The notes under the pieces were generated by a model, which searched no databases, was not told the origin of the DNA, and worked only from the letters and a program-made list of their open reading frames with translations. From Porpolomopsis calyptriformis (taxonomy: Eukaryota > Basidiomycota > Agaricomycetes > Agaricales > Hygrophoraceae), in NCBI GenBank assembly GCA_951640195.1, contig OX621171.1, forward strand, positions 496,001 through 560,000: 64,000 bases of DNA. Reading direction: 5' to 3'. The position numbers and the translations under genes are program-made. Within the stretch, counting starts at the first letter, position 1; each line of letters opens with the position of its first letter. Shown here in pieces: positions 9,604-62,262 of this stretch.

Positions 9604-10979
9604 ATCAGGGACCCATTATCAACAAAATGACCAAAATGCTGGCACAAAATTAATTCAAAATTCTTTGGGGGATTATTAGGGCATCCCAATACAATCAGTT
9701 TTTAATTTACTAACCCATAAATTAAAAAAATCGGCGGTCCCATTCTTGAGATATATGTAAAATACTCCATTTATACCATTATGCAGCCCAGCTATTGTAT
9801 TGCACTCTATAAATCGCAATTTCATATCCATTCGATAGGCACAGTGAACTAATGGTGAGCCCACCAAAAATTCCGATTTTTAGAGCATTTGGTATGTCGT
9901 GGTGGAAGATGGTAAGGTTTTAGGAGGAAGTATAAGTATAAGTAGCTATAGACTGCTCTAAAAATCAGGGTTTTATATTCAATCGATAGCCCCAGTGTCA
10001 TAGAGGTGGGGAATACAACAATCCCGATTTATGGACCATTTGGGGTACCGCAATCAGTTATATAAGGGGTATGGGGGGGGATATCTCCAACTTATCACAG
10101 AGGTCCTTAAAAATCAGGATTTCATGTTCAATCGATAGCGCTAGTGTCACAGATACTGGGAATACAAAAATCCTGATTTATAGACCATTTGGGGTACCGC
10201 AATAAGCTATATAAGGGGTATGGAGGGGTATATCTCCAACTTATCACAGAGGTCTTTAAAAATCGGGATTTCATGTTCAATCGATAGCAGTAGTGTCATA
10301 GAGGCTCAGAATAACAAAATCCTGATTTATAGGTAGAATAAGGTACCGCAATAAGCCATATAAGGGGTATGGGGGGTATATCTCCAACTTATCACAGAGC
10401 TCTTTAAAAATCTGGGTTTTATATTCAATCAATAGCCCCAGTGTCATAGAGGTGGGGAATACAAAATTCCTGAGTTACGGACTATTTGGGGTACTGCAAT
10501 CAGTTATATAAGGGGTATGGGAGGGGTATATCTCCAACTTATTACAGACATCTTTAAACATTACAATTTCATGTTCAATCAATAGCACCAGTGTCGTAGA
10601 TGCTTGGAATAACAATATATGGATAGAATAAGGTACTCCAATAAGTTATATAAAGGGTATGAGGGACTATATCTCCAACTTATCACAGACCTCTTTAAAC
10701 ATCACAATTTCATGTTCAATCAATAGCACCAGTGTGATAGATGCTTGGAATAACAATATATGGACAGAATAAGGCACTGCAATAAGCTATATAAGGGGTA
10801 TGGGGGAGTATATCTCCAACTTATCACAGACCTCTTTAAACATCACAATTTTATGTTCAAACAATAGCACCAGTGTTATAGATGCTCGGAATGACAATAT
10901 ATGGACAGAATGAGGCACAGCAATAAACTATATAAGGGGTATGGGGGGGTATATCTCTAACTTATCACAGAGCTCTTTA
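9604..10979 (+). repeat. Left terminal inverted repeat with subterminal array
   Basis: About 355 bp of unique terminal sequence is followed by about seven direct units of 141-150 bp. Landmarks of each unit are TATATAAGGGGTATGGGGG, CTCCAACTTATCACAGAG and TTCAATCGATAGC. TATATAAGGGG recurs near 10059, 10208, 10358, 10504, 10646, 10788 and 10929. The last unit is broken by the MITE that starts at 10980. Arrays of this kind often bind the transposase of their element (inference). Confidence 0.8.
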
Positions 10980-11289
10980 CAGCTGTTTGCACATGGCTTG
11001 ACACACTTTTCCGTGGATTTGAAAAAAGAAAAGAGTCGACTCAGTGCTGTTATGACTGATTATTAATCATTTAAATACAACTGTTAGGCTGTTGTACCAA
11101 GATCAGGCTTAATGGCAACCTCAAGCTTGTCGGAAGACGATTCAATGTCACCAGGATCAAGCACACTGTTGGGTGGTACCATTAAGGTGATGAGCAATGT
11201 TAAGAGTTACAGTAAGAGATTGTACAAGTTATGGCTGGTCAACTTTTCTTAAATCTCTGGACAAGTGTCAAGCCATGTGCAAACGGCTG
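10980..11289. mobile_element. MITE of the Tc1-like element, 310 bp
   Basis: Flanked by TA on both sides. Both ends carry the inverted tip CAGCTGTTTGCACATGGC / GCCATGTGCAAACGGCTG. Inside it keeps both ends of the full element at 13925-16778, including part of the first exon of its minus-strand gene (GGATCAAGCACACTGTTGGG), with about 2.5 kb deleted. It is non-autonomous. Confidence 0.88.
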
Positions 11290-11535
11290 TAATCCTAATC
11301 TACCTGTAGTTAAATGGAATCGGATCATCTATTTACTCGGCTCGACTGGCCTGGGTCTCTTTCGTCTGACTACCAGAGTCTACTGCTGGTTACCTGAGTT
11401 GAGCTCACGCCACGTTGAGTTGACCAAGTTGAACGGTGTTGTTACTACCCGCCTCTGAAACACAGTGACTGGCACTTCGTAGAGAGTTTGTTGAACTCTA
11501 TTTCGGGGACTGCCTTGTGACAGTCACCTCACATG
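11290..11535. repeat. Duplicated MITE flank (copy of 24765-25010)
   Basis: About 240 bp after the MITE, from the TAATC border to GACAGTCACT, is nearly identical to the DNA after the second MITE at 24764. The MITE was therefore copied together with its right-hand flank, not inserted twice independently. No gene is evident; the short frame common to both copies is probably chance. Confidence 0.8.
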
Positions 11536-13045: not shown

Positions 13046-16000
13046 ATGAGGCGATATAGCACCAGGGGTGGGGCCACGCCATTTCCAGGCAAAAAGTTTA
13101 ATCCAGTCCCAGCACCACGGGGCCAGCAAACTCCCTGCTTTGCGCATGGACAATCTTTACAAAAATCAATTGCCAAGGAAGCGTCTTTTTTTCGAAAACG
13201 GGCGGCATGGTTAAAAGATTTTTTAGACCAACCTGAGAGTGAGTAGTCATAATGTATCCATTTCACTATTCTTATATGACTAGATACCATTGTATGCAAA
13301 GGAGTGAGGCTTTCCGACCTTCGCCTACGCACCATCACAAGCCAGGTTTCAGCCTTTGCAGAGAAGCGCTTCCACGATATGCAAGCATCCAATATCATTC
13401 CCTGGGGTATGTCGTGGCGGTGGGTCGAAGATGTTGGCGAGGATCCTGAATGGTTAGTGATATATGCCTCAGAGCGAGTGAAAGATGGTCATATAGTCAG
13501 GGATGGGTTTTATGTGTGTTCATTGCATTTCAATAACATCATTCACTCATTGAAATGTGGTTATTTAGGAAAATGAAGCTCAATTCGTCTGGGAGGCCAC
13601 TCAAAAACTGTTTTCTGAAATTCAGCCTGTTTGTCCAGCTCTGGGTGGGGATAAGAGACATCTGGAAAGCGCTCTCTACCCACTAATGGACTTTGATGTC
13701 CTTGAAGAAGAGGACAATATTGTACATTCATGTAAGCTCAACTAGGATTCAAGAGTTGAACATTGATATTTTGAAGCAGCATCACTTCTCCAGACCAATG
13801 TTGGCACATGTTTAGACATCACTGATGGTCATGAGCCTGTTGGATTACGCCACGACATTCAAGCATGGTACGAGTTAGGACATAGGGTGTGTCATAAACT
13901 TATTTATTTACATGATTTGTTTTACAGCCGTTTGCACATGGCTTGACACTATTCCGCGGATTTGAAAAAAGAAAAGAAGTCGACTCAATACTGTTATGAC
14001 CGATTATTAATCATTTAAATACAACTTTTAGGCTGCCGTTCACGACTCTGTTGTAATGCCCTATCGAAAAATTAGTTCGAATGTAAAGCTCGCAGCTGTC
14101 AGGCTCCATGATCTCAATCTGCTTGACCTCGAGACCATTCTGCATATTGTTGGGTTCTCTCGCAGCACCTACTTTCGTGTTCTAAAGCTTTGGCACGAAA
14201 CTGGCGACGTTACTATCCACAGATTGAAACTTGGACGGCCTCGGCTTCTCCACAAGAGCGATGTTGATTATCTGATCTGTCTTGTGCACCACCGGCCTCA
14301 CTGGTTCCTTGACGAGCTCCTAGCTCTTCTCAAAACCAATCGATTCATTTCTGTTCACTATACAACCATCTTCCGAGAGCTGACTCGCATGGGTATGTCT
14401 TTGAAGAAGCTGAAGAAAATTGCACAAGAGTGGAACGAGAATGCTAGAGCCGACTTCATTGCAAGGATGGCCCAGTACGAGCCTGAGGAGTTGGGCTTCA
14501 TCGATGAAACTTCCAAAGATGAACGAACACTCTCACGTCGGAGAGGTAGATCAAAGAGGGGGGCTAGGGCTGAGGCAAGGGAGGTTTTTGTTCGAGGAAT
14601 CCGTCTCAGTGCAGTAGGCCTTCTCACAATTGATGGCATAATAGCAAGTACTGTTGTTCAAGGCTCAATGACGAAAGCAGGATTCCTACAATTTCTTGAA
14701 TTTACAGTGGTACGTTTCAGCCATTTTTGCAAAGATACAACTCATTTATTGTAACAGATACCACACTGTGTTCCCCATAGCAACCTCCATGTGCTTGTAA
14801 TGGATAATGCAAAAATCCATCGAGGCCCTGAAATCCTAGAGTTGCTTGATCGTTTTGGTGGGTTTCCCACCTACATAAATGAACCCATGCCAATCAACTC
14901 ACAGGAATCCAGCTGGAGTACTTGCCGCCATACTCGCCAGATTTGAATCCAATTGAGGAGGCCTTTTCAAAAATCAAAGCATTCATTCGTCACAACCAAG
15001 ATATTTTTACAGCTTCGACAGAATTTGGTATAATGTATGATATATATGAGGCTATGGATGTTATCTTGCCATCCGACGCAGCTGGTTATTTCATTCACAG
15101 TGGTTACTTTTAGTTTTGAACGCTATAAACTGTTAGGCAATTCTATTGACTGTATCTGCAAATAATACGGACGTCTAAGTATTATGACAATGCCCACGAA
15201 GCAACAGCATGTTTCAGCTCTGCAATCTCCCCACTTTTGAATCCCATCTCCTTTAGTTCACTTATCTCAGTGTAAGCAAAGGTATGTGTTCCCGAGTACC
15301 CATTTGCGACAAGTCGGTCTTGAATAGCTTCGGAAAGTGAGTAGTTGTTGCAGAAGTCAGTTATTGTCATTTTTGGTCTAGATGGATTTGCAACAGAGAT
15401 GAGCAGTGGTGATTGAGAAACAGTTGAAGAAGGAACAGCATTGGGTGCAGGTGCGACATGAGACAAAAGTCTGAAGAGAGCGTCAGGAATAGAGAAATGG
15501 TTGTGAATTTGCATGGGTGCAGAAACGGCCTGATCTTTTGCTACAGCTTGTTGACGGCGTTGATGAAGAAGTGATTTGGGGCCAAGACTGTCTGGAGACA
15601 AGACGTCGAATGCTTTATGGTTTGGAGGTTTATCAATTGTTGCACTCCCGTCATCCTTAAGCTTTAGGTGAATGGGTTAGTGTTGCCAACTCAAGTGATT
15701 ACTTCACGACTCACCAAGGCAGAAGCCCAGACCTCAAAGTGAGTCATGCTTAGAGGGAAATGCTCAGGGTTGTCAGCCGGCACATAGCAGTGATCACTTG
15801 AGCAGTTGCGTGTATTGCAAGCCCATCGATTCCTAAGAAACTGGATCTTTTCGTTTCGGGCTACATTCCCTGGCAATATTTTATCGGGTTTCTATATATT
15901 ATAAATACTATTAGCATCAAAATGGTAGCGAAACACTCACTTTTTTCTTTTTCTTTTTTGGCCGGTCATCATCAGTATCGGTGTTCTCTTTCTCACTGTC

Positions 16001-17385
16001 GGTACCCCTCTTTCTATTCTTTCTGCCATGCTAGTTGACGCCTTGCCATTTAGTATAATAACTATAGATGTTACGCAACATACCTTAAGATCAGATGTCT
16101 TCTCTGTAATAGTGACGTTCACAATCGGATCTTTTGCTTTGAGGGCTCGCTCGACAAGAAAGCTGTAATTGTTATGATGAAGATTCATGGCATTTGGAGC
16201 ATGACGAGGGACTGAGAAGGAGACATCGTAATCTTCGAAACTGAGGTTTTCTGGGTGATAATACGTATCAATCTTGACAAGTAGTTGGGCCTTGACCATG
16301 TCCCAAGGATCGGCAGATGAGAGTTTCAGAAAATCGTTATGGGGTACATGTTTGTGAGCTGGTTTCTTCATTTCTTTTGCATGAAACAGGGAGAGATTGT
16401 AGGTGATTTTCAAAGGAGAGGTTGCATCTAATTACTTTGATATGGTTATATTTGGGTTTGGATGTAGCAAGGACATACTTTCATTATGCTTTCCGACCTC
16501 CTTTTCCTTCGGCATCTTGAGTTTTGGCGGAACCGTCAGTGTGAGCAAAGGATCAGGTAGCGTGCCTAGATCAGGCTTGATGGCAGCTTCAAGCTCATCA
16601 GAAGACGATTCGATGTTGCCAGGATCAAGCACACTATTGGGTGGTGCCATTAGGGCAATGAGCAATGTTAAGAGTTACGGTAAGAGATTGCGTGAGTAGT
16701 AATTAAAGTTATGGCTAGTCGACTTCTTTTTCTTTTTTCAAATCTGCGGAATAGTGTCAAGCCATGTGCAAACGGCTGTAATCTGTCTCTTTCAGCATGA
16801 TAACCCTATCCCCTCTTCTGACCTTATTGGCAATCATTCAGCCCGAAAATCAAAAAATCACACGTCACTACTTGCAGGCAACTGAGAAGCAAATGAACTA
16901 CCTTGACAAGCTACTAGAAAAATTAGCACCAAAGGAGTGGAACCGCTTAAAACGTACTTATAAAGCAGGTCGTTGGTACCAGGACCTCAATGAATCCTGC
17001 TTTTTTAGACTCGCAACTATTTGGAAGCTTCAGGTTGATGTGCACATCAACCACAACGATTTTGAATTGAGCGTGATCACTTGTGCTGGCAAGTTTAATG
17101 GGGGACATCTTTATTTGCCGGACTTGGATTTGTGCTTAGCGTGAGGTGTTTTGTTCATGTATGTACCATTTTTGAACTAACTGCTGAGCTAGATATAAGG
17201 CTGGAGATATTGTTATTCTGAGGTCTCCATACTTGTTCCATGGAGTTGGGCACTGGGAACCTGGCCCCATGTTGTCCACCAATACATGCACTCCTGGGCG
17301 TATCGCGTGGGTCCATTTTAGCCACCAAGATGTCGTTCGATTCTTAGATGAGAAGCCCGAAGACTACATGATTCGGCTAGGCTAG
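13046..17385 (+). CDS. TET/JBP-like 2OG-Fe(II) dioxygenase, intron carries a Tc1 element
   Basis: Exons by frame and splice sites: 13046-13238, 13353-13513, 13569-13731, 13777-13886, 16796-17140, 17193-17385. The large intron (13887-16795) is long only because of the Tc1-like element at 13925-16778. Family enzymes oxidise 5-methyl pyrimidines in DNA. Signs: the N-terminal PVPAPRGQQ segment, GHRHDNP at an exon join, KLAPKEWNRL, then IWKLQVDVHINHND, GGHLYLPDL, the distal LFHGVGHWEPG and the strand GRIAWVHFSH. Two oddities. The expected HxD reads HIN (an HND follows), so iron binding may be impaired. A +1 frame change lies between SLLA and ATEKQMNYLD near 16880, either a mutation or a sequence error. 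The start at 13046 may not be the true one. Confidence 0.6.
14056..15113 (+). CDS. Tc1/mariner (DD34E) transposase
   Basis: Three exons (14056-14709, 14758-14857, 14905-15113) keep frame and give 320 residues. The N-terminal part has helix-turn-helix sequence (LDLETILHIVGFSRSTYF; KLGRPRLLHKSDVDYL) for binding the inverted repeats. Catalytic acids: Asp in GFIDETSKDERT, Asp in VLVMDNAKIH and Glu in PDLNPIEEAF, with 34 residues between the second Asp and the Glu. The family cuts at TA and inserts at TA, as seen at both ends here. The start has the usual PYRKISSNVK opening. No stop or frameshift was found, so it may be active. Confidence 0.9.
15182..16650 (-). CDS. Tc1-borne accessory protein with SAM-like C-terminal domain
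   Basis: Minus-strand gene inside the Tc1-like element, about five exons: 16650 down to about 16510, about 16430-16084, about 16031-15941, about 15900-15710, and about 15660-15182. The start is MAPPNSVLDPGN at 16650; an ATG at 16665 is an alternative. The protein has an acidic N-terminus, a segment with HVPHNDFLKL and WDMVKAQLL, a basic nuclear-localisation-like stretch (RPKKKKKK), a Cys/His segment (WACNTRNCSSDHCYVP), and a C-terminal SAM-like bundle (DFCNNYSLSEAIQDRLV; ISELKEMGFKSGEIAEL). SAM domains bind other proteins or RNA. Tc1 elements normally carry only the transposase. A role as transposase partner is inference. Confidence 0.65.
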
Positions 17386-24262: not shown

Positions 24263-24342
24263 AATTATATACTGGGTAGTTTCTCTAGTATTTTCAAACA
24301 TCAATTGTACCATAGACAACTATATGTACTGTATTATTATTA

Positions 24343-40185: not shown

Positions 40186-40192
40186 TGTGTGT

Positions 40193-46762: not shown

Positions 46763-47135
46763 CCCAACCATTCAACCACACGGGTGAACTGAGGGAGATA
46801 ATAGCTTCAAGGGTGTAGCGCATCTGCTGGGCCAAACACTAACCGCAAGTACAACGTGGGGCTCTATCTCCCTAAGGGATAGGGAGTCTAGAAGCTGCCA
46901 CCTTTCTGTATATGTAAATAAAGCAGATTGTGTTTGGCATATCTACTAGGTTACATGAGGTTGTAATTGGTTTCATCGCAGGCAAGGTAATGTATGTATT
47001 CATGTATGTTTTTTTTTTTTTTTTCACGTGAGACATGAGCATCAAAGTCCAACTCAATTGTATCGATTGTAAGACTGTAACAAAGTACAGGCATATGATA
47101 GCAGCACATCAATAGATAATGAATAGAAACTGTCC
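46763..47135. other. Spacer with an 18 T run
   Basis: A T18 tract (47008-47024) abuts CACGTGAGAC. It may be the poly(A) of a minus-strand retroelement, but no LINE coding sequence is visible. No gene seen. Confidence 0.4.
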
Positions 47136-49815
47136 CTATGGCGGTGGAAGAAAAAGTTCGGTGGATAAACATTTTTCTTCACTGAGCGCCATCCAATGCT
47201 CTCCACTGACGAGTACTTCTGACTCCATAGCTGTCAGGCTGATTCCTGCCCTTTCTAGTATCGCCTTGATCTGTTTCTGGGCCTCGTTGATTTCTCCTTC
47301 TTCCTCCTGAAAAAGGACATCCCACTCGGTCATTGGAAGGTCTGGCCTTTTCTGCTCACCCGGCAAAAGGTACTCATTCGATTTGAGAATCATTCTGGCC
47401 AGCGCCAAGAATGGCCATCGATATATTTCTGGAAAGCTAGCTTTTAAACAAAAATGAGGGGATATCATTCATTCACGTGCTCACTTCGACTTTTGGCGAC
47501 ATGTGGAAGTGCTAAAACCATGCGAGAAAGCAACCTTGAGACGTGGTGATTTGCATTTGTTGAAAAATGACCATGCATATGGTCGAAGTCCTGCGATTGT
47601 TCAGTGAGGTGAAGCGTCTCATAGGTATAAAAGTGACCTCCCGAACAATAGCTTGGCGTGGGGGTGTATACAGCATGCCAAATGCCAGGAGGCATAATTC
47701 TGACACATAGAATCAATATATGAGCATGAGTAATCAATTTTTAGAGTGTTAATAATATAAAAACTTACAGAATCTCCCCTGCAGAAAGAAACGTCATGAA
47801 AATCTGAGCATGTTGATTCAGTTGGTGTAGTTGACTGAAGCAAATATCCTTGTGCAGGCTGCACAACTTGTTCCGGGAGTTGTGACTTTTTGTGTATCTA
47901 GGTCAAATAATGGCCCAAATTTTTATCCCGGCATGCGCATAGATCCAGGTACACAAGCCGTTAGCATCCTTGTGGGGGAATGTTACGAAGCCAGCATGTG
48001 TCAGCAGGTTCCACTGCATCATTTGCCAGGTGCACATCCGAATAACCTGTGGCCCTGGAAGGACTAGTTCTTGTCGAGTATTTGGCATCTTGTGATGCTT
48101 CGACTTGTCCTTTGGAGGGTGCTTCCAAAACTTCGCGAATGATTCATGTTTTGTGAGCTGGAATGCGAGTGCTTCGTCACTTATTCGACTGTTAAGGTTA
48201 CTTGTTGAAATAAGCCAATGTACAAGCTCTCAGCACTCTTACCATATAATAGAGGGGGCGGCATTTCTCAGTGAAGGGGCATCCAGGATATTTCCACAGA
48301 TGTCTACACCCTCAGATGCCTTGATAAACTCCCCCAGGGAAGAGTGGCTGTGGATGATGCCATCTGACTCCTTCTTGGACCTACCGACTGCACGCAATCT
48401 TGCGTCTATACAATATTAAACCACAGTAATCGTAGAGATGGATTTTACGTACCATGCCACTGAACTGGCTGGCTTAATGGACCCCTTGCTGCCTCGATCT
48501 CCTCCTTACAAAACGTCTCCGGACCTTCAAGATGTTGACCCTGTAATATAATGCATCGCTGATTAGCGAGATGGAGTCGCACGGCTTCATCGATGGCATG
48601 AAGTGGTTGGGAAGGTTCTCTTGGTGGGATAACGACATAGTTAGTTTCATCCAAGTCCCAGTTGTTTATCGAATGGGTTGCAGATGAACCATCAGGTGAT
48701 TTGGCAAGCACCTCAACTAATTTAGCATCCTTAACAAAGCTTCAGTTAGCTGATCAAGAACGAGCACAAAATGATGGACGGACTGGATTTTGATGGCCTG
48801 GAACGTGAACCCATGGAAGTACGGTTTGCGACCCATTGGCCCATTGAATCGAGGATGCGTCCTGGGGAAAGTTCACTCCCCTCAACGAAGTAAAGTAGTC
48901 GTGCTTATTCTGGGTGAGGGGTGCTGATGTTATGCATTATCTTCTTCTTCATAAGGATGATGCGATGCGAATAACTTCACATACCAGATATCGTAGCTGG
49001 TTGATGTTTTTTTCGACTCGTGGGTTCTTCATCATCGGACAAAGATCGTTTTTGGGGAAGACTAGCAGCGCTCACTCCTTGGCCCAGTTCATTGGGATGG
49101 TTGATGAATCCGATCGCAATAAGATATTGCAGCGAGTCAGATTTCTCTTGAGCGGCATCGCTTGAAGTGCCAGCCGTCGCTGGAGAGTCTGACCAAGTGT
49201 CGGTCGCAAGTATCTCGTTCCCAAATGACACGACCCTGGATATGTGACTCTTCCAATCTTCAGTGAGCGATTTAATATCAGCTGTTGCACCCAATATTGA
49301 TAAGATTACTCACCATATTGAGTCGGATCGTCATCTTCATAAGGCAGACGGTTCTCGTTTTTGCAATGATCGGCATAGAGTTGGCGACCTGTTTGAGAGT
49401 GTCCAAATGAATGGTAGACTCTGACGGCCCATTGCTTCACCGTCTTCAATCGCAATGATGCTTGAGTGAGCAGTTTACGATCCTCAAACCACAACTCATG
49501 CTGCACGGCCAAACAGAGGTTCTGGAGGTACTGTTTGATTCGTCCTGCATGTCGTACCTGGTTCTCTGCTTCAAGGCAGCTGTGGCAATGACTCAGGTCA
49601 AGGAAAGCAAGGATAGAGTGGTAATGGATGTGTATTTCGCGAGATCGCAGTGAGTTGTTGTGGTAGAAAAAGAGCTTGAATGTTGTTTGGGTTGATAATT
49701 CTGAGAAGCGCCAGAAATTGGACGGTTTATTCAAGAGGGTGGATGTCTTGGCTGGCCATAAAGCCTCATCATCAAATAGCTCTCCTTCTTTGTTGGCTAT
49801 CGGTTGGGTGGCCAT
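47136..49815 (-). CDS. JmjC protein with N-terminal WAVR/FGHS domain
   Basis: Minus strand from MATQPIANKEG (49815) to 47136. The N-terminal exon has the family motif KQWAVRVYHSFGHS and DDDPTQY. Splicing (GTGAGT...CAACAG) leads to ADIKSLTEDWKSHISRV and a basic segment, then an exon FPQDASSIQWANGSQTVLPW joined to EVLAKSPDGSSA, NYVVIPPREPSQPLHAIDEA, HDARLRAVGRSKKESDG and LAFQLTKHESFAKFWKHPP. The JmjC core has THAGFVTFPHKDANGLCTWI (HxD near 47973) and MPPGIWHAVYTPTPS (distal His near 47674), then GGHFYTYETLHLTE. A C-terminal helical exon ends at 47136. JmjC enzymes are Fe(II)/2OG demethylases or hydroxylases. No stop is needed within exons, so the gene may be functional. The fusion to the small-domain family is the notable point. 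Confidence 0.65.
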
Positions 49816-49839
49816 GATAATGAACGTATGTGTGGGGGT

Positions 49840-49845
49840 CACGTG
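49840..49845. promoter_or_regulatory. CACGTG E-box upstream of the JmjC gene at 49815
   Basis: GTCACGTGGG lies 25 bp before the minus-strand ATG. An in-frame ATG at 49842 overlaps the box, which favours the downstream start. Confidence 0.35.
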
Positions 49846-50641
49846 GGTATTTATTCGATTAAAGAGTTTGAAAGCTACAAAGACGATATGATTCTATCCA
49901 GGACTTGGATTAGATCATGTGCTATAAATGAATGCCATATTCTCAAGTTTGAGGGTGACAAAGAAGCCCTGACGTTTTCTTTGCCATTTGATTCATTCCA
50001 CTACTCCTTCATCTGGTTGAAGGAGTTATAAATATTACGGTGAAAACCATCATCCTCATTATAATTTATTGAAGTGAAGGATACAGATTGTGGAGGTGTG
50101 AGGTATACCGCTGAGGAAAGGTGGCTACAATGATCTGTAAGTCCCATGGTAACTTGCAGCTGCTGTTCGCATGTAAAAAAACAAAAAACATCAAGAAACT
50201 TTCATTATCATCTTCGTCTTCATCTTCATCTTCATCTTCCTTTCGAATCGTGGAGGAATGGTAACACTGTTATCGGAGAATTGAGGCTGCCCCCCCTCTA
50301 TCTCAGCTTGGATCTTGGATCAGTATCAGCTTGGTAAATTCATCTGAATGAAATGCACCATGGGATCCCACTGGCTGATCATTATCAGCTGAAAGATTCA
50401 TTGCTAGCTGTGAAATACTAAATGATCACAATGAGTGAATGTGAACCATGTGTGTCTTACAGACCTACCCAAGATCAGCCTCATGGGTAGGTGATGATGT
50501 ATTTACACCGTATCCATGGGAATCTGGGTTGATATTCTTCTCCTGAACATCGTTAGCCCACTGTTGGGCTGTATTTTCATTGATGCCAGTAGCAAAGAGA
50601 AGCATATAGCATTAGAGCATCCCTAAGCCAAGATGTTGATT
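49846..50641. other. No confident gene
   Basis: Contains a (TCATCT)n stretch near 50210-50240 and possible terminal exons of the next minus-strand gene. The short frames have no recognisable motif. Confidence 0.4.
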
Positions 50642-51453
50642 TCATTTACTCTCACCGTTAACTCCAAGGAACAAAGCAAGCGCACAGGTCACAGAGTGCC
50701 CTCTGTCAAACCGGGGAGGTTTCGTGTGTGATTCTAGCTGCTGGAGACATAGCTGGAACCCCCTGCTTAGCCAGTTTGTATGGGTTTCGAATAAAGTATG
50801 CCATTCTATGTAGTTTGAATTGGAAAGCATGATGAGATAAGGGAAGCTTGTGTATGCAGAAGCTGCCTCTTACGGTATAAGGTTGGGTCTTCATAGGTGT
50901 ATGGAGTCCACCCATTTGCCTTGCATTTCTGAAGGTACTCCCGTCTGCCGAAGAAAGAGTGGCCAAAAAAGTGATTCATTCTAACTGCCCACGGTATTGT
51001 CGTTTTAGGTTGGAAGCTAGAGCCAAAGCTGCCATGGTTTTGTGATAACTCAACCCAGAGATCAGACCTGAGCCTTTCCAGGTAACATGTGATACGATTT
51101 GCACTGGGATGAGGGTTAGCAACATTCGCCCAGTATTCAAGGTCAAGAAGAGCGATCTGAAGTGTGGTCGATAGAGGGAGAGTGTAGTGTCGATGTTTGT
51201 TTCTGCTTTTGCAAAAAGCATGTAAAATGATCTGCTTTTGCTGGTTCAATTTGAGGGTCAAGTCAGGTTGTGTGAAAGGGTGGCTGATTTCCTCAAAGAG
51301 CCAGATGGTGTCGCTTGGTGGAACAGGAGAGCGATCGTTCGACCACCGATTATTATCCGCATCCAAGCATCGAGAAGAACACATCATTTGGTTCCAAGGG
51401 TAGTTACATTTGGGGGTGGGTGGATAACTGCATGAAAACAAGATAATCAGCAT
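50642..51453 (-). CDS. WAVR/FGHS-motif protein 3
   Basis: Minus strand. The main exon (51453 to about 50865) encodes DTIWLFEEISHPFTQPDL, then RHYTLPLSTTLQIALLDL and EYWANVANP, CYLERLRSDLWVELSQ, PWAVRMNHFFGHS and NGWTPYTYEDPTLY. A GTAAGAGG donor then joins a short exon (AYFIRNPYKLAKQGVPAM), and the gene ends soon after. Start codons at 51453 and 51387 (MMCSSRCLDA) are both possible. The domain is closest to the copy at 45368 and is found alone here. Its histidines and arginine are invariant in all three copies, which suggests a binding or catalytic site, but no function is known to me. Confidence 0.6.
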
Positions 51454-51921
51454 AAAATTTATCTAGATGTGGTGAAAAAATAAGCATTCATTCAATCGCA
51501 TGCATATAGCCATTGTGGTGCTGGAAGTAGTTTCGTGTGTGAGTCACAGCTCTTGATCACTACTTAGGCTCCTCACACATCACTTCATAGCACATCACTT
51601 CATAAGTACATAACAGCTAGTTGATATTCACGCATACACAGACAAGATAGCTGGGAGTTAATCAATACAGTATCAAAGCAACTTGATATGTTATGCGTGA
51701 CATCACATTTGCATACCAAAATGGGATGGGAGTGGCGCATGTGAACTTGCTAATTTACACCTGCACACAGCTCAACATGTCTACACAGGTTTAGCACAAA
51801 TCGTATGTAGTAGACTTATATAGTAACTAGCTTGGAATGCAGCAATACAAGTTGATTAATATTTGTGGAAAGTTTGATGCGACATGCATGCAGCGTAATA
51901 GATGCTAATTCAGTAATTTTA
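51454..51921. other. No gene seen
   Basis: Short direct repeats only (for example CACATCACTTCATA twice near 51580). Likely 3' region of SIR2 and 5' region of the gene at 51453. Confidence 0.45.
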
Positions 51922-53072
51922 TCAAGACCATAACCTCCATGATGGTCTGTAGTTAAGCTTTCTGTCTCCATAGAGAACCTGAACCTGAGTGTGGTTGCTT
52001 TCGAGCATTTCACCTGACGCAATCATCTCCTCCATCCTTTTCAATGCCAACCGTGCAAACTCTTCACAGTCCATGTCTATCCAAGCGTCAAATATACCAG
52101 CCCACGTAGCTGTGTTTGTAAAGGTATTATTGAGATATATAACTTGAGGTGATGCTTGTAAACTGGATTTGGGGGAATTTTTTGCTAAGATTCTAGCGGA
52201 CTGCTTGATAAAGTCAGTAGTACCCTTCACTTTCAAGCTAGTGCCAACCACAAGGAGAAGATCTAGTTGGCGACTGGGGGTGGTAGTTAACCCAAGATCA
52301 TTTTGCTGCACGTTTGCTATTTCTTCTCCTCGAGGATGTGGTTCTCCGTAAAGAATGATATTGGGTTGGAGTCGAGGCACAGTCATTCTGCGTTTGCCCT
52401 GCTCTACCCTCTTTTCCATATTGATTTGACATTCAGTGCATTCTGGTAGTTGGCCCTCTTTCAAAGAGGGGTAGTATGGTTCGAGGATAAAAATGGAGGA
52501 GCAGCCAGGGCATCGTAGTTCCTCTAGGGATCCATGCAATGGAATGCATCAGGCTGGTCCATCACTGGGGTGAATTTCTGAGGACATATGTAACCCAGCC
52601 TTGAGCTCCAAACCATCGATATTTTGAGTGTAAACACGGAGTAACACTCCTTGGAGGTCTAGAGCACGAAGGAAATGGTGGAAGGCAGTGGGTTGTGCGA
52701 TCGCCGCTTTCTCAGCAAGGGTGGCAATGAGCTGACAATGCAGTGATTGTTGCTTTTGGGTCTAGAACATTAACTTGGTCAACTAATCCTCACTTGAACA
52801 TATATTTCTCACTACGAGGGATGAGCTAGTAAGCAGATCAGTCAGGTTGACTCCGGTAAATCCAGATAGTGCGTTGCCAGTATATAAGCCATCTGGTCCT
52901 CTAAAACATGGAATACCTGCAGCCACGGATATTCCTGCTCCTAGAGAGTAGGTAAGTATTTGAATGAAACATGATGATGGGTCGATTGACCACAGAGCAC
53001 GACGATTCTCTTTGCTTTCAGTATTCCATCCATTAGATCTGTTGCACTTTGTTTTATAGTGGAGGGGAACAT
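51922..53072 (-). pseudogene. SIR2 (sirtuin) deacetylase with one premature stop
   Basis: Minus strand, start ATG at 53070-53072 (MFPSTIKQSATDLM). Three exons give the full sirtuin core. ILKAKRIVVLCGAGIS is spliced into AAGIPCFRGPDGLY (NAD loop), then FHHFLRALDLQGVL, the TQNIDGLELKAGL motif, LHGSLEELRCPGCS with the first zinc CxxC, CTECQ with the second, PNIILYGEPHP and LDLLLVVGTSLKVKG. Sirtuins use NAD to deacylate histones and other proteins. One TGA at 52549-52551 lies just before the catalytic LHG histidine (DGPA-x-CIPLHGS), probably from CGA. Everything else is intact. It is either a recent pseudogene or the base is wrong. The stop position would remove the active site. Confidence 0.8.
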
Positions 53073-53144
53073 AATAGCTGAGTTTTTAGTAGTAACACGG
53101 TGAAGGATAGTAGGTATTAGATAAGCTAGAAGAATGGTAAGGTA

Positions 53145-54511
53145 TCAAATAAGCAAATCTGAGCTACACCGAGGGCAAGTATAGTATGTTTGGTCTGTAA
53201 CGACTAATGGCTCATAAGAGTCTGTGTTATCTATGCCGAATTCTGCCTCAAGCCAGTTTTCCCAGTCAGTGTCTATCATATTTAACTGAGACTCCTCAAT
53301 GAGGTGAGCAGCTATCCATCCAGAGGCTTGGACGACACTGCGTTCCTGTGAAGAAAGCAACTTTCTAGCCTTGTTCACGATCCTAATATTTCTGGCTGTA
53401 AAATAAGTGAGACCTCCCCTAGCTGTGGGTTGGAAAGCAACTTGAAGTATAATTTTTGGGGTGTCGGCAAACTTCTCTATAGCATAGAGATTGTTAAGAT
53501 ACTGCTGCTGGGTAATGTTGGCAGGGGTTCCTAGGCAAGTAAGATGGGACCATCTTTTGCAGGACCAGCAGTAGCGTTGTTCCTCTGTATCGGGGGACCA
53601 AAGTGAATAACAGTGAGTTGCGCCACATATTTCTGGCTCGCCCTGCCACCCAATAGATTACTACAGGGTATATGTTTAGTTCAATGAATGCACCTTCAAT
53701 GCCTGCCTATGCGCATCCCAGAAGTATCTAATAGAAATTTTAGTATAATAGATGGGTTGGTATTATCGTCAAGCTTACCGCATGTAATACGCGGTTACTG
53801 GAGGTTGATCTTCGATCTGATTTTTAATAATAACAATGTCGATTGTATCTACAGTTTAATTTTCAGTTCAGTTCAGTTCATTCTTTTATATCTGCTTCTC
53901 GATATAATAACCCTCACCTTCCAAGGCTTGCGCATCAATGATATCTGTAGAATCAGAGCCACACAGCTCTTGCTTTCCAAATGTGTTTATATACCTGTCA
54001 AGAGTAAGAAGAACATAGAGTGACAGGAGAAGGAGTAGGTTTTGAGATGCAACCTTTTAGTATCAGCCTTAACATCACTTCTCTCCAACAACTGCTTGGC
54101 TGTATACATCCATGAAACCTTAGCAAGATACTTGTTCTAAAGCACATTGTCAACATTGGGTAGGGTAGCTTGAGCAGGTGTATCACCTTAGTAGTTTTTC
54201 TTATTTGTAGGATCAAACCTTTCCAGTAGTCATCCATTATAATATTATTTTCTTCCTTTGCATGGAGGCCAAGGTGACGGATGAGGCAGCTGTGTTTGAG
54301 GGAAATAATCAAATGACTACTATTCAAGCATTATCGATAAACACTTACAAGTCATTCTTAACGAATTTGCAAGGAGAGCCTATAAAGTTTTGATTCGGAA
54401 CAAATAGAACAAGGCATAGGTGATATCTCACCATCATTTGGATTAGGAACCTCGAGGTATTCTACAACTTTTGCAGATTTCCATTGTTTTTCCTCGGTTG
54501 TAGGTGCCATA
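53145..54511 (-). CDS. BAH-PHD-like chromatin reader
   Basis: Minus strand, start ATG at 54509-54511 (MAPTTEEKQWKSAKVVEY). Exons: an N-terminal piece, IIMDDYWKGLILQIR, then ILAKVSWMYTAKQLLERSD and NTFGKQELCGSDSTDIID, the strand pattern of a bromo-adjacent-homology (BAH) domain. TYYMR-like and YFWDAHRQALK segments follow, then a PHD-like Cys pattern (ICGATHCYSLWSP; QRYCWSCKRWSHLTCLG) and a helical C-terminus ending YTCPRCSSDLLI at 53145. BAH-PHD proteins bind nucleosomes and methylated histone tails. Exon joins are approximate and the BAH call rests on motif order only. It starts next to, and diverges from, the large gene at 54640. Confidence 0.5.
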
Positions 54512-54639
54512 ATAATAAATCTACAGACCAATGTTGATTATTCATATTATATTCCCACAGCTATATATATGTCACGTGAATGTAGATACACTTTGTCTCG
54601 ACTATTGCACAAACATAGCTCTCGATCTTAACCTCCAAT
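54512..54639. promoter_or_regulatory. Bidirectional promoter with CACGTG
   Basis: 128 bp separate two divergent ATGs (54511 minus, 54640 plus). It contains a TATA stretch (CTATATATAT, 54561-54570) and GTCACGTGAA with the E-box at 54573-54578. Shared control of the reader gene and the large gene is inferred. Confidence 0.5.
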
Positions 54640-57600
54640 ATGGCAAACCAGGCAAATGAAGGTGCAGATTATGACAGTGATATAGATAGGATCATAGCTA
54701 TGTCCTCACTAGCCAAGGTAAGCCTATCCCTAGTAGTTATGTATCTAATTCGATTCACACAATTAAATCATTACGAGGCTAATAAAACCATAATAAACCA
54801 GGAAGGGGATTCGACTTCTAGTGGTTCAGATGATAGTGATATACGTAATATCCTGAATATGCCTTGTGCAGAGAAGATGCCAATGCCAATACCGATGCTA
54901 GGAGAAAAACATATGCCTTCCAAAAAACATATATTAATCAACAAAAAGCCAGTATACTCAGTAAGTGTATATCTGTTTTCAAGGTTAAAGTGCTCACATT
55001 ATTACAGACAACGTTAATTAGCCTAAATCATCTTAACATCCAGAATTCGGATCAGCAATATATATCGATACCTCCATTGGCTCCCTTAGGTCCCCAGCCA
55101 GGTCCTTCAAGGGTCCAAAATGCAATAAGTAGAAAGGATAATGGCGCTGTATGTCTCAATTAACCTATGACAATAATAACTTACATTTATTTATTTTCCA
55201 GGTGGCAAAAGCATGGTATGTATTTTAAGAGAAATCATAAGATACTTGCGTATTAATACTGGTTAGGTTTAGTGATTATAGCTCTCCTTCAGAGCCTTCG
55301 GTGGATATTAGAAGGAACAACTCGCGATTTGAAACCAGACACCGGTGAATAAATCTATCATTCGAAATGTTAGGTTAAATACTAAACTTTTAGAAGCTCA
55401 ACAAGCCGATCATCGTCACCAGCTAGCAATAACGGATCAGATTTCATTGGATCCAGTGAAAGTGACAGCGCTCATTCTCATTTACTAGCAAAAAATGCCA
55501 TTCGATTGAATCTACCACGATCTGAGCAAGAGCTTTTTATAGGTATGTTCTTATATTATTGGTGGTGATTAGACTCATCAAGGATATTAGACACGAAGCT
55601 AGCAGATCCAAGGATATGGGCTTCAGCTTGTCAATCATTGGGATCTGCTTAGCCTGGAAACCACCTGGATCACGCGGTCATAGAAATTTACCTTTTGAAA
55701 TCATGGTATATGTCTATTCAACCCCAGATGCCATCTCAGAGATATTCCTACTATCTAGACTCAGAAATGGTGAGCAGGGTAATAAGAGAAGAAGAAGACA
55801 TCCTGTCTACCGAAATCCATAAAACTCTCCTTCTTCCACCTCACGTTGCTATCCCGAAAAAGCCTGTGTTATTTTTCCCTCCACTATCATGGCAATCTTC
55901 TGCAACCCAAAGGCTAGCTTTATTTGATTACCAGCAGGAGAAGGTTCTTGTTTTTAGCCATGGAGCTCCACTCAAAACCAATATGTACTCAGATTGGATG
56001 GAGTGGAATGGCAACTACTATTGGAGGGCTATTGCTAATGTGTTTGGGTGGATCCTGGGTAGTGAGTTGGATGAGCGAGGTCCCCAAGTAATCGAACCGA
56101 ATTGGAATACAGTGAAAATCTCGTTTCTATACAGAAGAAGCATATTCATATACATATTTCAACAGAGTGAGGCCGACACTGGTTCCTGGATGGCATCGCT
56201 TTGCCAAGAAATCTTTGATAATGGTTGGATGTATTCCACAGACATTAACCAACACCCACTTGCACCCAAATTGCAATGTGTTCATGCGATGCGAGAGAGA
56301 ATATTTCTCACTGTGCTTCAAACTGTACAAAAATCATATGACTTCTGGAACAAGACTCAGACCCTGCTTCGGTATTCCATGGAACCCAATTCTGAGGTTG
56401 TGAATGATATAAAGGCTGGGCTTTTAAAATTCAAGCGTTTCGAGGTAATAGCACTTGCGCTTGCAACTGCTCGTATGAAGTGTGAGTATTATCTCATTCC
56501 GATTACCTGTGATAATCAATCTAAAGAGGCTACCTATATTAATCAACTAGGCCATCTTCTGGATAGTCACGACAAGGATGGCAATGCCAGCAATGACGAC
56601 AACAATGACAATGATGATGACAATGACAATGACAATGATGACAACGATGATGATTCCATTGTAATCAACCTACCACCTCAGCCTTCCAGAAGGTCTCTAC
56701 CTGAAATCCAACTTCCAGAGGTTGAGCTAAATGGGAATGGGGGTGAAGAAGCATTAGCAACAAGCGTTGATGAGCGGCCTTTTGATGACTACGAATCAGC
56801 TATGTTGGTTTGCTCCGAGGATCAAGCTGATATCATTCCAAACACGTGGACCTTTGACACCAATGGAATGCTTGTATTGGGCAAGCACTGGAGTATCTGG
56901 AGGGATAGAGGCTATAGGTTGCAGGCCGATTTTTTCTCTATGTTCAATAACCAGGAACCGGTTCTCCTCAATGACCACCTTCTTCCACACTGGGATTCAA
57001 GTGATCAAGCAAGTGGATGTTTACCATCATCTCCAGTTGCATACCCATCCTCGTTATCTTCTCATTCTTCTGAGGTGCCGAATTCCCTACCAGCTATGGA
57101 CAACCCAGATGTAACTATGATGGGTGCTCAGGATATGTTGGATGAGGCGGGAGGGGTGGAAGGGACATCAGAGAGCCAGGGTGTGTTTGTAAAAGGTAAA
57201 GCACGCAACAACAAATTCATCTACTTCGACTTGGAGAAGGATAGAGTAAACCTGGACGATGAAGAAGTGTCAGTGTCGGTGGATATCGACAGTGTCATAT
57301 GGGTCACGCATAAACCACAGTTCATTGGTCCAATCAATATTCACCTTCTTCCACTGTTAGATGACAAACCTCCATTCTCTGTCAACAATCATGTCTATGT
57401 CCAGGTTCTACAACCACCTACCACTCGAAATCCTAGGCAGAGGTCTAAAAGGTATCCACTTAGTGCCTTGCCACATACCCATTTCGGGCAGATGGGTCAA
57501 GGATCAGGCCAATTTAACACCTACGTCTTCTTCCCTCGTATGATTAGGAAAGACCCAGGAACGCATAGAATGACTACTCTGATGCCAAGGGAGGTACAGG

Positions 57601-60007
57601 AGTTGTGGTTCTCACAAGTGATCATGCCTGCTCTGCCAGTGGTTTTAGCCAACTACACCGGAATTATGGAGTATCTTCCTACAAGCGTCAGTAATCTCCA
57701 ATGGAAAATAGGGACAAGACGTACGACCAAGACCATTCCCCTCACACCTGAAGCATTTTCTTCCATGCGAACCACTCTCTGCGACATCATAAATAACCAG
57801 CCCGATCTCCTAGGCCGATTCGGGTCCTTTTTCTTTGTTGTAGATGCTCGAGGTATCAAACTGCTCTCTAAGCAGCACCACCCAACCGAGAATATATATC
57901 AGGCACTCTGTTCGATGATTCCTAACATGGACTGGGATTATATGAAGGACCGATCGCATGGAGAACTCTTGCTTGATCTTGGGATTTCATACCATCCTCC
58001 TTCTAGGGAGGATCAGGAGCCATTGGTAGGGCTGTGGAGGTTAGATAGGATCGACGACTCGTACGACCTTATGGGGATGAAAAAAGGAATGACCCATTAT
58101 ACTGCCATGTTTGGAGCTTATGGAGGGAGACAGGCTGAAACCAAGTTGAAGAAAAGTCGGCTTGTACACCTTTGCTTCCGATCCAGCTACAACCTTTGCT
58201 TTGAGGTGGTGCAACTTCCTGGCCAAACGAACTACCTATGTGATGACTGTGATGCAGTCAAGACAAATGACCAATTCATGACTAGCTGTGATCACTGGAA
58301 AAAGCTGTTTCAATCTTCTCAAATCCAGTCATTCGGCGTTAGAGAAGAAGTTAGAGGGAGTGGGTTAGCCATTATAAAGCTTCTTGATGTAGCATCTGAA
58401 AAGGTAAGCAGCGAAATAACTGCAAACTAGAAATGTCTAATGATTGCCAGGCACAAGACTATATGTCGTCTGACCCTATCATTTGGATCAAGTCGAGCCT
58501 CTTTTTCAAGTTGTTGGCAAGAAGGCTAGCAGAGTTTCAAAACGTCCAACTACACCTTTCACGAAATCGACCAAGCAACTATGGAATGATGGCTACGCTT
58601 ATCATCCACCTGATTAAGCACACCATGGTCACGCCAAGGATAAAGCACACATTCTTGAATGATGTGTTGCGAGACCTTCGTTTCAGTTCGATAATGTGGA
58701 GGTTCGGAATGTTCTTTCTTCACGACCTCAAGTTGAAGAAAGGAGTGCTATCTCTAAGAGAACTACCGGAGGAGGATCCAGCTGAGGTTATCCAAGCGTA
58801 TGGACAGTCCTTGAAGAAGCCACAGGCAACTCAAGCCAACCAGCCATATCACCTTATTCAAATGTATCAGCAAGATGTGTGCCCTTGGGGTCCCGATCCA
58901 TCTTGGTCAAGAATTCAGAAACTGTTGGAAACCGAGCCAGAGATTTTCCTTAGGGAATGGAGGTTGGATGATGACTGGGAAGCTCCTGAACTGCTTTACA
59001 CAAAGCTGTTGTTTGTTGAGTTCACGCATCAGCTGTGGCTAAGTCTGGCAGAGCAGTTTGCATCAGCAGGTGTTTTACCCAAGCCAACCACAGTTCAGGA
59101 AGCAATGGAGACTTGGACGGTACCTGCGATTCAGCATATCATAGGCATTGACCATTGCTGATTCCTTCCTTCGAGCTGTGGCCTTAAAGGAAAGCTTCCT
59201 TTGAGTCACTCCCATGATCTATCATTTTCAGCACGTCGGGCAACCTTCTTCCCTGAACAAACTATCCAGATCCCAGAGAATTCAGTCTGGAAACCATACA
59301 CCCAGCCTGGAGGATATATCTCCACTTACCACCAATATCTTGTGGATTGGGATATGGATGAAGGTGATCAGCTCTGCCGTGAATTGGACAATATATTTGG
59401 CCAGTTACAATGCCTTCCTGTAGGTGGCCTATCGAATAAAAAGGGGAAACAAGTCATATGGGGGATGAAATCAGGCAAGATCAACTTTATTTCGAATTCA
59501 AAGTTCTATCGGATTGAAGAAATTGGGAAAGAGGTGGCTGCGCGTCCACGAACTCAGGTCCTAAAAAGGCCTCATGCTTCAAAGAATATACTTCAGAGAC
59601 GACTAGATGAAACCTTGGGGAGATTGATAAAACCACCTATTCGGAGCCGAAAGTCTGCCAAAATCTACCAAAAACAAAAGCCTCCTGTGAGACGGAAAGC
59701 AGACAACAATCCTTCAGGTTCAGAGAGCGGGAAAGAGCAACAGGTTAGGGTTACTCGCTCAAAGGCCAAGGCTGCCCAGAAAGACGAGGGAAGAAAGGGG
59801 GTGAGTGGTGTGCGGATAACTCGGTCAAGAATGAACGCTGCTAGGAAAGATGCGGAGAGAGAAGATTCAGGTTCAGGAAGACATATAGTAGGTAGATCTC
59901 AGTCAAGAGTCAAGGCTGCTAGGGAATGGGCAGATTTAGAGTCTGATTCCGATTCCAATTCATTAGAGTACACAGATGAGCCAGGATCAGAGCAATCTAG
60001 TAGCTAA
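54640..60007 (+). pseudogene. ~1,670-codon gene beside the right end, two in-frame stops; candidate core gene
   Basis: Eight exons keep phase throughout: 54640-54717, 54802-54960, 55008-55148, 55202-55215, 55267-55344, 55394-55542, 55573-58403, 58451-60007 (5,007 nt). Two codons interrupt: TAG at 55650-55652 and TGA at 59159-59161. The N-terminus is Ser/Asp-rich. The middle has conserved-looking blocks (SDWMEWNGNYYWRAIANVFG, LKFKRFEVIALALATARMKC), an Asn/Asp run, then FGSFFFVVDARGIKLLSKQH, NMDWDYMKDRSHGELLLDLG and LVHLCFRSSYNLCFE. The C-terminus is basic with repeated RVTRSKAKAA / RITRSRMNAA motifs that suggest DNA binding. I recall many unnamed Agaricomycete proteins of this type; no function is known to me. 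Its place against the terminal repeat makes it the best candidate for the mobility protein (inference). Confidence 0.6.
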
Positions 60008-60062
60008 TGTATCGATTTGAAGATTATATATTCACAGGTCTATTCTACCTATATGTATTACA

Positions 60063-62262
60063 CTGCTCATTGTGGTACCCCAATCAGTCTGCCCATGGGG
60101 ATGTGGTTATTCTGGGATGTTATCACACTAATGCTATTGATTGAACATAACATGCTGATGGTTAGAGAGCTCGGTGAGAAGTTGAAGGTATAACCTCTGA
60201 TACCTCTTGCATGCTAATTACGGTACCCCAATTATTCCGCACATGAGGATTGGACTACTCCTGATGTTTGTAGCACCAATGCTATTGATTGAACATAAAA
60301 TCCTGATGCTTAGAGGGCTCTCTGATAAGTTGAAGGTATACCCTCCCATACCTGTTGTATACTTATTGCGGCACCCTAGTTAATCCACACATGATGATTG
60401 AACTATTCCTAACCTTTGTAATACTCATGCTATTGATTGAACATAAAATCCTGATACTCGGAGAGCTCTGTGATAAGTTGAAGGTATATCATCCGATACT
60501 TCTTACATACTATACCCCAATCATTCCACACATGAGGATTAGACTACTCCTGACCTTTGTAACACTAATGCTGTTGATTTAACATAAAATCCCGATGATT
60601 AGAGAGCTCTCTGATAAGTTAAAGGTATACCACCCCATGATATCTTATATACTTATTGCGGCACCCTAGTCAATCCATACACGAGGATTAGACTATTCCC
60701 AATGTTTATAACACTGATGCTATTGATTGAACATGAAATCCTGATGCTCAGAGAGCTCTGTGATAACTTGAAGGTATACCCCCCCCTACCTCCTGTATAC
60801 TTCTTGCGGCACCCCAGTCTATCTACACATGATGATTGGACTATTCCCAATGTTTGTAACACAGGTGCTATTGATTGAACATGAAATCCTGATGCTCAGA
60901 GAGCTCTGTGATAAGTTAGAGATATACCCCCCTATACCCCTTATATAGCTTATTGCAGTGCCTCATTCTGTCCATATATTGTCATTCCGAGCATCTGTAA
61001 CACTGGTGCTATTGATTGAACATGAAATTGTGATGTTTAAAGAGGTCTGTGATAAGTTGGAGATATACTCCCCCATACCCCTTATATAGCTTATTGCAGT
61101 ACCTCATTCTGACCATATATTGTTATTCCGAGCATCTATAACACTGGTGCTATTGATTGAACATGAAATTGTGATGTTTAAAGAGGTCTGTGATAAGTTG
61201 GAGATATACTCCCTCATACCCTTTATATACCTTATTGGAGTGCCTTATTCTACCCATATATTGTTATTCCGAGCATCTATGACACTAGTGCTATTGATTG
61301 AACATGAAATTATGATGTTTAAAGATGTCTGTAATAAGTTGGAGATATACCCCCCCATACCCCTTATATAACTGATTGCAGTACTCCAAATGGTCTATAA
61401 CTTAGGATTTTTGTATTCCCCACCTCTATGACACTGGGGCTATTGATTGAATATAAAACCCAGGTTTTTAAAGACCTCTGTAATAAGTTGGAGATATACC
61501 CCCCCATACCCCTTATATGGCTTATTGTGGTACATTATTCTACCTATAAATCAGGATTTTGTTATTCCGAGCCTCTATGACACTACTGCTATCGATTGAA
61601 CATGAAATCCCAATTTTTAAAGAGCTCTGTGATAAGTTGGAGATATACCCCCCCATACCCCTTATATAGCTTATTGCGGTACCCCAAATGGTCTATAAAT
61701 CAGGATTTTTGTATTCCCAGTATCTGTGACACTAGTGCTATCGATTGAACATAAAATCCTGATTTTTAAAGAGCTCTGTGATAAGTTGGAGATATACCCC
61801 CCCATACCCCTTATATCACTGATTGCGGTACCCCAAATGGTCCATAAATCGGGATTGTTGTATTCCCCACCTCTATGACACTGGGGCTATCGATTGAATA
61901 TAAAACCCCGATTTTTAGAGCAGTCTATAGCTACTTATACCTATGCCTCCTCCTAAACTGTTACTATCTTCCACCACGACATACCAAATGCTCTAAAAAT
62001 CGGAATTTTGGGTGGGCCCACCATTAGTTCACTGTGCCTATCGAATGGACATGAAATTGTGATTTATAGAGTGCAATACAATAGCTGGGCTGCATAATGG
62101 TATAAATGGAGTATTTTACATATATCTCAAGAATGGGACCGCCGATTTTTTTAATTTATGGCTTAAACTGATTGTATTGGGATGCCCTAACGATCCCCCA
62201 AAGAATTTTGAATTAATTTTGTGCCAGCATTTTGGTCATTTTGTTGATAATGGGTCCCTGAT
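60063..62262 (-). repeat. Right terminal inverted repeat with subterminal array
   Basis: Inverted copy of the left end. About twelve units of ~145 bp run from just after the last gene to 61920, then ~350 bp of unique terminal sequence. The units nearest the tip match the left units in order, for example the CAATCCCGATTTATGG unit then the CACAGATACTGGGAATAC unit. Inner units drift more. The array is about 800 bp longer than the left one. Confidence 0.8.

Follow-up and report, generated by a model that had tools for sequence, protein, structure and literature searches.

Evidence for a giant, chromosome-end-oriented element with one precise end in the mushroom Porpolomopsis calyptriformis

A 64,000-nt stretch of the P. 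calyptriformis genome (contig OX621171.1; C9:496001-560000, "the window") contains a block of 52.7 kb bounded by two long inverted arms. This block is probably, at a rough probability of 60%, an interstitial and rearranged part of a giant mobile element (about 41 kb or more), which is oriented toward the chromosome end, has one precise end only and would move by a Rep-like nick and run-off. One exact end, W|TCAGGGACCC... (W, A or T), was joined to 74 different flanks, mostly at W^TC in the uninterrupted target. The body of the element was located on the contig-end side of this tip in 64 of the 71 distinct cases, nested copies were head-to-tail, and no common far end was seen. The feature is out of the ordinary and is not a transposon with terminal inverted repeats (TIRs). 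The genome comprises 33.5 Mb in 17 contigs, labelled C1, C9, C13 etc., and contig ends were used as a proxy for chromosome ends.

The tip, its flanks and its orientation

When the window was compared with itself by blastn, positions 9604-10976 and 62262-60900 aligned with 95.05% identity over 1,374 columns. A first-pass annotation had described the two arms as reverse complements over at least about 800 bp, with the outermost sequence and the order of the internal subunits mirrored, and both statements held, the first over a greater length than claimed. Both arms start with ATCAGGGACCCATTATCAAC, followed by tandem subunits of about 141-149 bp in the same order, and on the right, diverged subunits continue the arm inward as far as about 60,060. 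Searching the genome for the tip pattern, with up to 3 mismatches allowed, yielded 103 tips (48 + 55) and a reversed-pattern control none, so the arm tips are not a product of chance. The tip, of which TCAGGG resembles the telomeric repeat TTAGGG, folded into a hairpin no better than shuffled sequences. No target-site duplication was visible by eye at both ends of the window and C13 copies, the sole pair compared.

Of the 103 tips, 100 places were listed and the flanks were read for 93. Pooling of flanks with 32 identical bases among the last 40 led to 75 clusters, one left-type cluster with 12 members and 74 right-type clusters; those of C1:203806 and of the C16 array are in one sequence, at a distance of six bases, and may stem from a single event. 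TCAGGG was preceded by A in 39 clusters, by T in 36 and by G or C in none, and the second base before it was C in 40. Other copies of the flank made the empty target visible for 23 rows, in which the next base was T in 22 and the one thereafter C in 19. These rows are partly dependent: two belong to the same C5 array, C1:201013 and C7:2217902 are insertions at the same site, and for the window/C1 pair, another two rows, the target was read from a 91% paralogue, which has the T but not the C. In the row without the T, C1:305793, the alignment ends before the junction. Additional target sites read ACT^TTGG (C13:1597754), GATA^TCTG (C10:41049) and, as deduced from an 85% paralogue on C11, CACA^CC (C13:1536645). 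This junction series is strong evidence.

The 14 large contigs carry 84 right-type tips, of which 76 point to the contig centre and 80 are no more than 400 kb away from a contig end, a zone that makes up 34% of the sequence. With each distinct flank counted once, the figures are 64 of 71 for orientation toward the centre (p = 6e-13 if independent) and 68 of 71 for a position no further than 400 kb from an end. The exceptions in polarity are C5:332514, C6:125564, C10:150417, C13:1536645 and three tips on C9 at 1.87-1.93 Mb. The orientation of the nine left-type tips on these contigs was unbiased (3 versus 6).

Junctions of one copy within another were head-to-tail in 8 of 8 cases in the tip-proximal 17.6 kb and in the single case at 26.3 kb. 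Seven more junctions, in 29512-44632, are head-to-tail if the old copy was arranged as in the C10 and C13 copies, which gives 16 junctions with 15 distinct flanks when these conditional seven are counted; for the junction at C6:125564 (91%), the orientation relative to the old copy cannot be judged. Stubs of the element of only 57, 116 and 129 bp precede the next tip.

On the distal side, no common end was seen in the four copies read at length. The C10 copy has its tip at 41,049 and its body reaches the contig start. It is co-linear both with the C13 copy (99.4% over 19.3 kb) and, except for an inversion and local repeats, with the window. The body is cut at window position 51787 on C12 and at 59567 on the right side of C1, with telomeric repeats 10.4 kb and 6.8 kb further out, respectively. 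A telomere-adjacent distal block in C12:1-21100 and on C1 right joins the element at different truncation points. As judged by eye, it ends proximally at a hairpin plus CTAG, similar to a Helitron 3' end, and carries on C12 an open reading frame (ORF) for a TLH/RecQ-like helicase.

Telomeric repeats, irregular CCCTAA/CCTAA, were found at 2 of the 20 sampled contig ends (C12 left and C1 right), and a pattern of four TTAGGG units had no match. Thirteen of the 20 ends fall inside the element, which means that the assembly breaks there. Exactly equal tip spacing in the arrays on C5 (29,310), C2 (25,054) and C16 (49,281) may be the result of assembly loops. These caveats affect the copy number and the arrays, and the junction series less so because it is based on distinct flanking sequences.

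ORF1 and a possible mechanism

The gene ORF1 starts 6.6 kb from the tip, reads toward it and encodes about 1,430 aa. Copies of its part 55653-58427 in the same genome (49 scored of 73 candidates) were 98-100% identical, and 48 of these 49 possessed a tip 6.2-7.1 kb downstream of the start. The ratio of nonsynonymous to synonymous substitution rates was 0.23-0.50 between three copies with 11-20 differences, a hint only that ORF1 may be under constraint. Residues 500-925 as query retrieved 114 relatives, those named being from Boletus, Phlebopus, Suillus, Gyrodon, Leucogyrophana, Amanita, Athelia, Cerioporus, Dentipellis and Tulasnella, while a profile search with the whole ORF1 returned 7 matches, all of them already known homologues. 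The protein matched no Pfam family convincingly, including no Helitron or helicase domain. PF02486 (Rep_trans) was found in none of 37 homologues at a listing threshold of E 10, despite which the HMMER filters remove most matches above about 0.1. Against the PDB sequences, ORF1 alone had no match and its profile a single irrelevant one (E 1.1); a scan of IMG/VR with an ORF1 pattern gave 5 matches, none of which was confirmed.

An AlphaFold2 model of 57090-58427 (446 residues, the last 8 of them intron-encoded; 98 sequences) reached a mean predicted local distance difference test (pLDDT) value of 94.2 and a predicted template modelling score of 0.91, while that of all 925 residues with 10 sequences was unusable (pLDDT 34.6). 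The best structural matches in fold searches with the domain model were the Rep_trans initiators RepDE and RepSTK1 and the archaeal Rep-Arvir; absence of a family from these search lists is no evidence of a differing fold. The invariant residues are located on predicted strands, Y367 on 361-368, D65/D67 on 61-73, D296 on 292-302 and R418-x-E420 on 417-424. This agrees, by sequence order and secondary structure only, with a tyrosine on a strand, three acidic ligands on separate strands and an R-x-E motif. The domain contains no lysine at Y+2 and an E/Q at Y+5 on a helix (E372). A large gene near the tip, kept across the Agaricomycetes, has, as judged by sequence and prediction, a fold and an active-site layout like those of Rep_trans rolling-circle initiators, and the predicted assignment to a Rep_trans-like enzyme is good but not proven.

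As far as the accessible text on Rep chemistry goes, a tyrosine enzyme carries the 5' end of the cleaved strand and can join it to a 3' end. The ORF1 protein would nick the tip at WTC^AGGG and the target at WTC^, and the 5' end of the element strand would be joined to the 3' end of the target. With a tyrosine enzyme on the 5' end of the AGGGACCC strand and a target 3' end in WTC, the junctions should look as those observed. As a hypothesis, displacement synthesis from the tip would subsequently run off the chromosome end: the strand runs 5' to 3' from tip to telomere, so displacement would end by run-off and all distal DNA would be transferred. The whole sequence from the donor tip outward, including the telomere, would pass to the new arm, and no second end would be needed. 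Such a transfer would explain the polarity, the missing second end, the head-to-tail stacking and the spread of distal blocks.

The first-pass annotation had proposed an undescribed giant transposon class. That the element is giant, mobile and rich in genes, and matches none of the described fungal classes testable here, stands; the paired-TIR structure attributed to the class does not. Somewhat short of even odds is the wider interpretation as a eukaryotic giant rolling-circle-type class, distributed across the Agaricomycetes, in which a Rep_trans-like (TATA-binding-protein fold) endonuclease moves whole chromosome ends with the telomere as terminator. In this interpretation, the enzyme would nick the tip, and the displaced strand between tip and telomere would be attached to a WTC site on a different arm. 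If true, a DNA element with a single functional end would colonize chromosome ends, a third route in addition to telomerase and to telomeric retroelements, and the ORF1 gene family would be a main shaper of agaricomycete subtelomeres. This could explain why the chromosome ends of this genome fail to assemble and how cargo blocks (SIR2, TET/JBP-like, alpha-kinase) spread between arms. It would also place a Rep_trans-like enzyme in eukaryotes, while the accessible part of PMC13107129, a paper of 2026, mentions bacteria together with a related family in archaea. A direct biochemical assay is offered by the junction rule, in which W^TC is joined to AGGGACCC.

History and gene content of the window block

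The left junction is flanked by repeated DNA and not by unique sequence, namely a dispersed 209-bp sequence assigned by eye as a solo long terminal repeat (LTR). Of 247 candidate places, 40 were scored; 12 of these are tips, and the other 28 match only bases 1-209. The site ACA^TCA in this LTR-like sequence fits the W^TC rule. Ten of the tips are 99-100% matches to the left arm, each with the LTR-like sequence outside the tip, and their common flank continues across all 1,500 bases read in 7 of the 10 and for 354 bases at C9:1953338. In the window and its C1 relative, the shared left flank is the LTR only and ends exactly at its 5' end, which points to LTR-mediated recombination. C4:126909 and C9:2005817 possess right-type repeats yet the left-type flank, and the flank of all 12 copies forms one cluster. 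As read from these alignments, the left junction arose once and was copied afterwards, and the left side of the window was probably re-flanked by LTR recombination. In the C13 copy, the flank beyond the LTR-like sequence includes a stretch resembling by eye a FAS2 gene fragment.

An element at C1:3543807-3596458 has the same flanks as the window element on both sides, bar a 200-bp difference at the right, so these two are, judged by their flanks, one insertion event in two copies and not independent insertions. The block is about 0.45 Mb or more away from the C1 telomere, with its duplicate on C9. Paired LTR and Helitron matches suggest a large inverted duplication between C9 at about 0.23-0.56 Mb and C1 at 3.54-3.88 Mb, although a second haplotype or a misjoin could account for it. 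On the right side, the flank at 62700-63900 is multicopy, with near-full matches on C5, C9 and C12 and partial ones elsewhere (96-100%); one ORF in it weakly resembles a response regulator.

The left body consists of no more than 1.37 kb of array, beyond which comes other sequence containing secondary elements, and most of the remaining block is the right element plus the inversion. In the simplest reading, two capped ends, one in the LTR and one at the right flank, would have been joined tail-to-tail, leaving two outward-facing tips that consequently would resemble long TIRs.

The interior had been described as dense in cargo. A Pfam scan of 49 of the 58 in-element ORFs of at least 110 aa identified some cargo-like genes (Table 1).

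Table 1. Features of the window, with positions counted from its first base
Feature	Position	Strand	Remarks
Dispersed 209-bp sequence, putative solo LTR	9398..9606	.	TG...CA ends; its 3' end meets the left tip at ACA^TCA
Left tip	9604..10976	+	Second outward-facing tip copy; stops after seven repeats
Tc1/mariner-like secondary element	13922..16781	+	DDE_3 ORF 14032-14751, E 4.7e-6, just under cut-off; inverted ends
Inverted segment	29512..44632	.	Orientation in the window opposite to that in the C10 copy; C13 agrees with C10 where overlapping
TET/JBP-like dioxygenase exon	41384..42133	+	PF12851, E 2.1e-6, under gathering score
Alpha-kinase gene exon	43889..44587	-	PF02816, E 5.3e-8
Tip-proximal 17.6 kb	44632..62262	+	Common to the C13 copy at 98.9%
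SIR2-domain (sirtuin) gene exon	51925..52548	-	PF02146, E 1.4e-10
PHD-finger-like ORF, weak	53148..53657	-	PF00628, E 0.0045, below cut-off
ORF1 exon 1	55653..58403	+	Open from 55653; 45 of the 49 scored copies (73 candidates) without stops
Rep_trans-like domain of ORF1 (predicted)	57090..58403	+	D65/D67, D296, Y367, E372, R418-x-E420 (domain numbering; +479 for ORF1)
ORF1 intron, 47 nt	58404..58450	+	GT...AG from sequence; acceptor region in 3 of 3 copies compared
ORF1 exon 2, basic C-terminal tail	58451..60007	+	In-frame stop at 59159-59161 here; C12 copy open
Subterminal array of ~141-149 bp repeats adjoining the right tip	60065..62112	-	Possible protein-binding repeats
Right tip	62113..62262	-	Precise mobile end, reads inward (W)TCAGGGACCCATTATCAAC...; 103 copies, 74 flank clusters, all W|TCAGGG

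Several minus-strand ORFs in 47139-53657 without a family may belong to one or two spliced genes together with the SIR2 and PHD exons. Tc1/mariner-like and MITE-like (miniature inverted-repeat) sequences with common ends CAGCYGTTTGCACATGGCTTGACAC and TA borders were at 10977-11291, 13922-16781 and 24340-24404; a second weak TET/JBP-like ORF (16782-17141, E 0.028) adjoins the Tc1/mariner-like copy. An ORF at 22732-23383 contains a JmjC-like stretch by eye, to which Pfam gave no support. Left of the element, 1-6120 contains Gypsy-like retrotransposon ORFs (gag, reverse transcriptase and integrase by eye).

Other explanations and known systems

An unlikely explanation, albeit the best of the alternatives, is a transposon with the rolling-circle logic of Helitrons, whose insertions would be complete and have an unrecognized second end, its bias in position and orientation coming from selection against interior insertions and from the direction of replication close to chromosome ends. 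Helitrons follow the terminal rules TC...CTRR and use an AT target. The single precise end starting with TC, the target beside a T, the gene cargo and the head-to-tail arrays are Helitron-like traits, and 35 Helitron_like_N matches were found elsewhere in the genome. The window contained none, however, ORF1 is without a Helitron domain, A and T about equally frequent before the tip do not indicate a fixed AT target, and no distal end recurred in the four copies.

Slightly less probable still is an RNA-mediated telomere element of the Terminon or HeT-A kind, in which the tip would correspond to an RNA 3' end that was copied onto broken chromosome ends and the distal truncation would be due to incomplete copying or erosion. 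The part of PMC6431247 available describes for Terminons a similar geometry, with a precise proximal end, 5'-truncated head-to-tail arrays and captured genes, and the similarity of TCAGGG to TTAGGG would also agree. No reverse transcriptase was found in the scanned ORFs, however, although small exons could escape, nor was any YxDD motif convincing. In the 75 flank clusters, the final 45 bases contained no telomeric array, and in the window no Rfam family reached gathering score, including the hammerhead ribozyme. A W^TC target implies recognition of a sequence. Moreover, ORF1 retains its intron, albeit some retroelements keep introns.

An origin without dedicated mobility, through segmental duplication in subtelomeres and break-induced replication using TC microhomology, is improbable. 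Large duplications (the C9/C1 pair mentioned above, if correctly deduced), the one left flank common to many copies and the 1-4 nt that most targets share with the tip would fit. Nevertheless, 74 clusters joined at the same base with a strict A or T outside the tip are hard to obtain by homology or by 1-4 nt of microhomology, and the junction series argues strongly against this explanation.

A 52.7-kb transposon with functional long TIRs, as proposed by the first-pass annotation from the two inverted repeats, had in its favour that these are nearly identical and that several left/right pairs are 28-53 kb apart, but it was rejected on the flank series, one left flank in 12 copies versus 74 right clusters, together with the missing target-site duplication in the window and C13 copies, the shared window flank that ends at an LTR, and the absence, among 93 tips read, of left/right pairs with distinct unique flanks on both sides; existing pairs share the left flank and are thus duplicates of one another. 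Tips occurring singly and never paired, named beforehand as speaking against paired ends, are largely what the flank clusters revealed.

The element with one precise end, favoured here, shares with Terminons (giant Penelope-like elements of bdelloids) and with HeT-A/TART the giant size or telomeric location, the precise proximal end, distal truncation, arrays and captured genes. Those are reverse-transcriptase elements, whereas here no such enzyme was found in the scanned ORFs, the junctions are in ordinary W^TC sequence and a Rep-like gene is near the tip. Terminons reach up to 40 kb and some also contain rolling-circle Rep genes, according to the part of PMC6431247 available. With the Rep_trans initiators (PF02486; RepDE, RepSTK1) and the archaeal Rep-Arvir, the ORF1 domain would have in common the tyrosine strand, D/D/E on separate strands, R-x-E and E/Q at Y+5. 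In the accessible text of PMC13107129, Rep_trans is described as bacterial, with a related archaeal family, while ORF1 is a eukaryotic protein of about 1,430 aa, encoded within a giant chromosomal element and invisible to Pfam.

A TET/JBP-like cargo gene is also known from KDZ (Kyakuja/Dileera/Zisupton) and Plavaka elements. The first-pass annotation was right that this is no ordinary KDZ element: KDZ transposase had 19 matches in the genome and none in the window. Kyakuja elements have 7-bp target-site duplications and no TIRs, as far as the accessible text of PMC12730594 states. The DUF3435 captain of Starships was absent from the Pfam matches of the scanned ORFs, with no dedicated search made, and no fungal element of this kind was among the open-access literature matches listed, subscription journals being outside the scope.

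Helitrons, with their HUH Y2 Rep and helicase, are alike in the eukaryotic rolling-circle logic, the one defining end and gene capture, and Replitrons (HUH Y1) use this logic, too. ORF1 differs by the lack of a Helitron or helicase Pfam domain and by a predicted fold that may resemble the TBP-like one of Rep_trans, and the element by its polar location at contig ends. Y' elements are subtelomeric multicopy blocks, and such Y'-like or TLH helicase regions resemble the element in this respect, with a TLH-like helicase ORF by eye on the distal side of C12. These regions spread by recombination, whereas the element described here has its inner boundary at a single, exact base and a target motif there.

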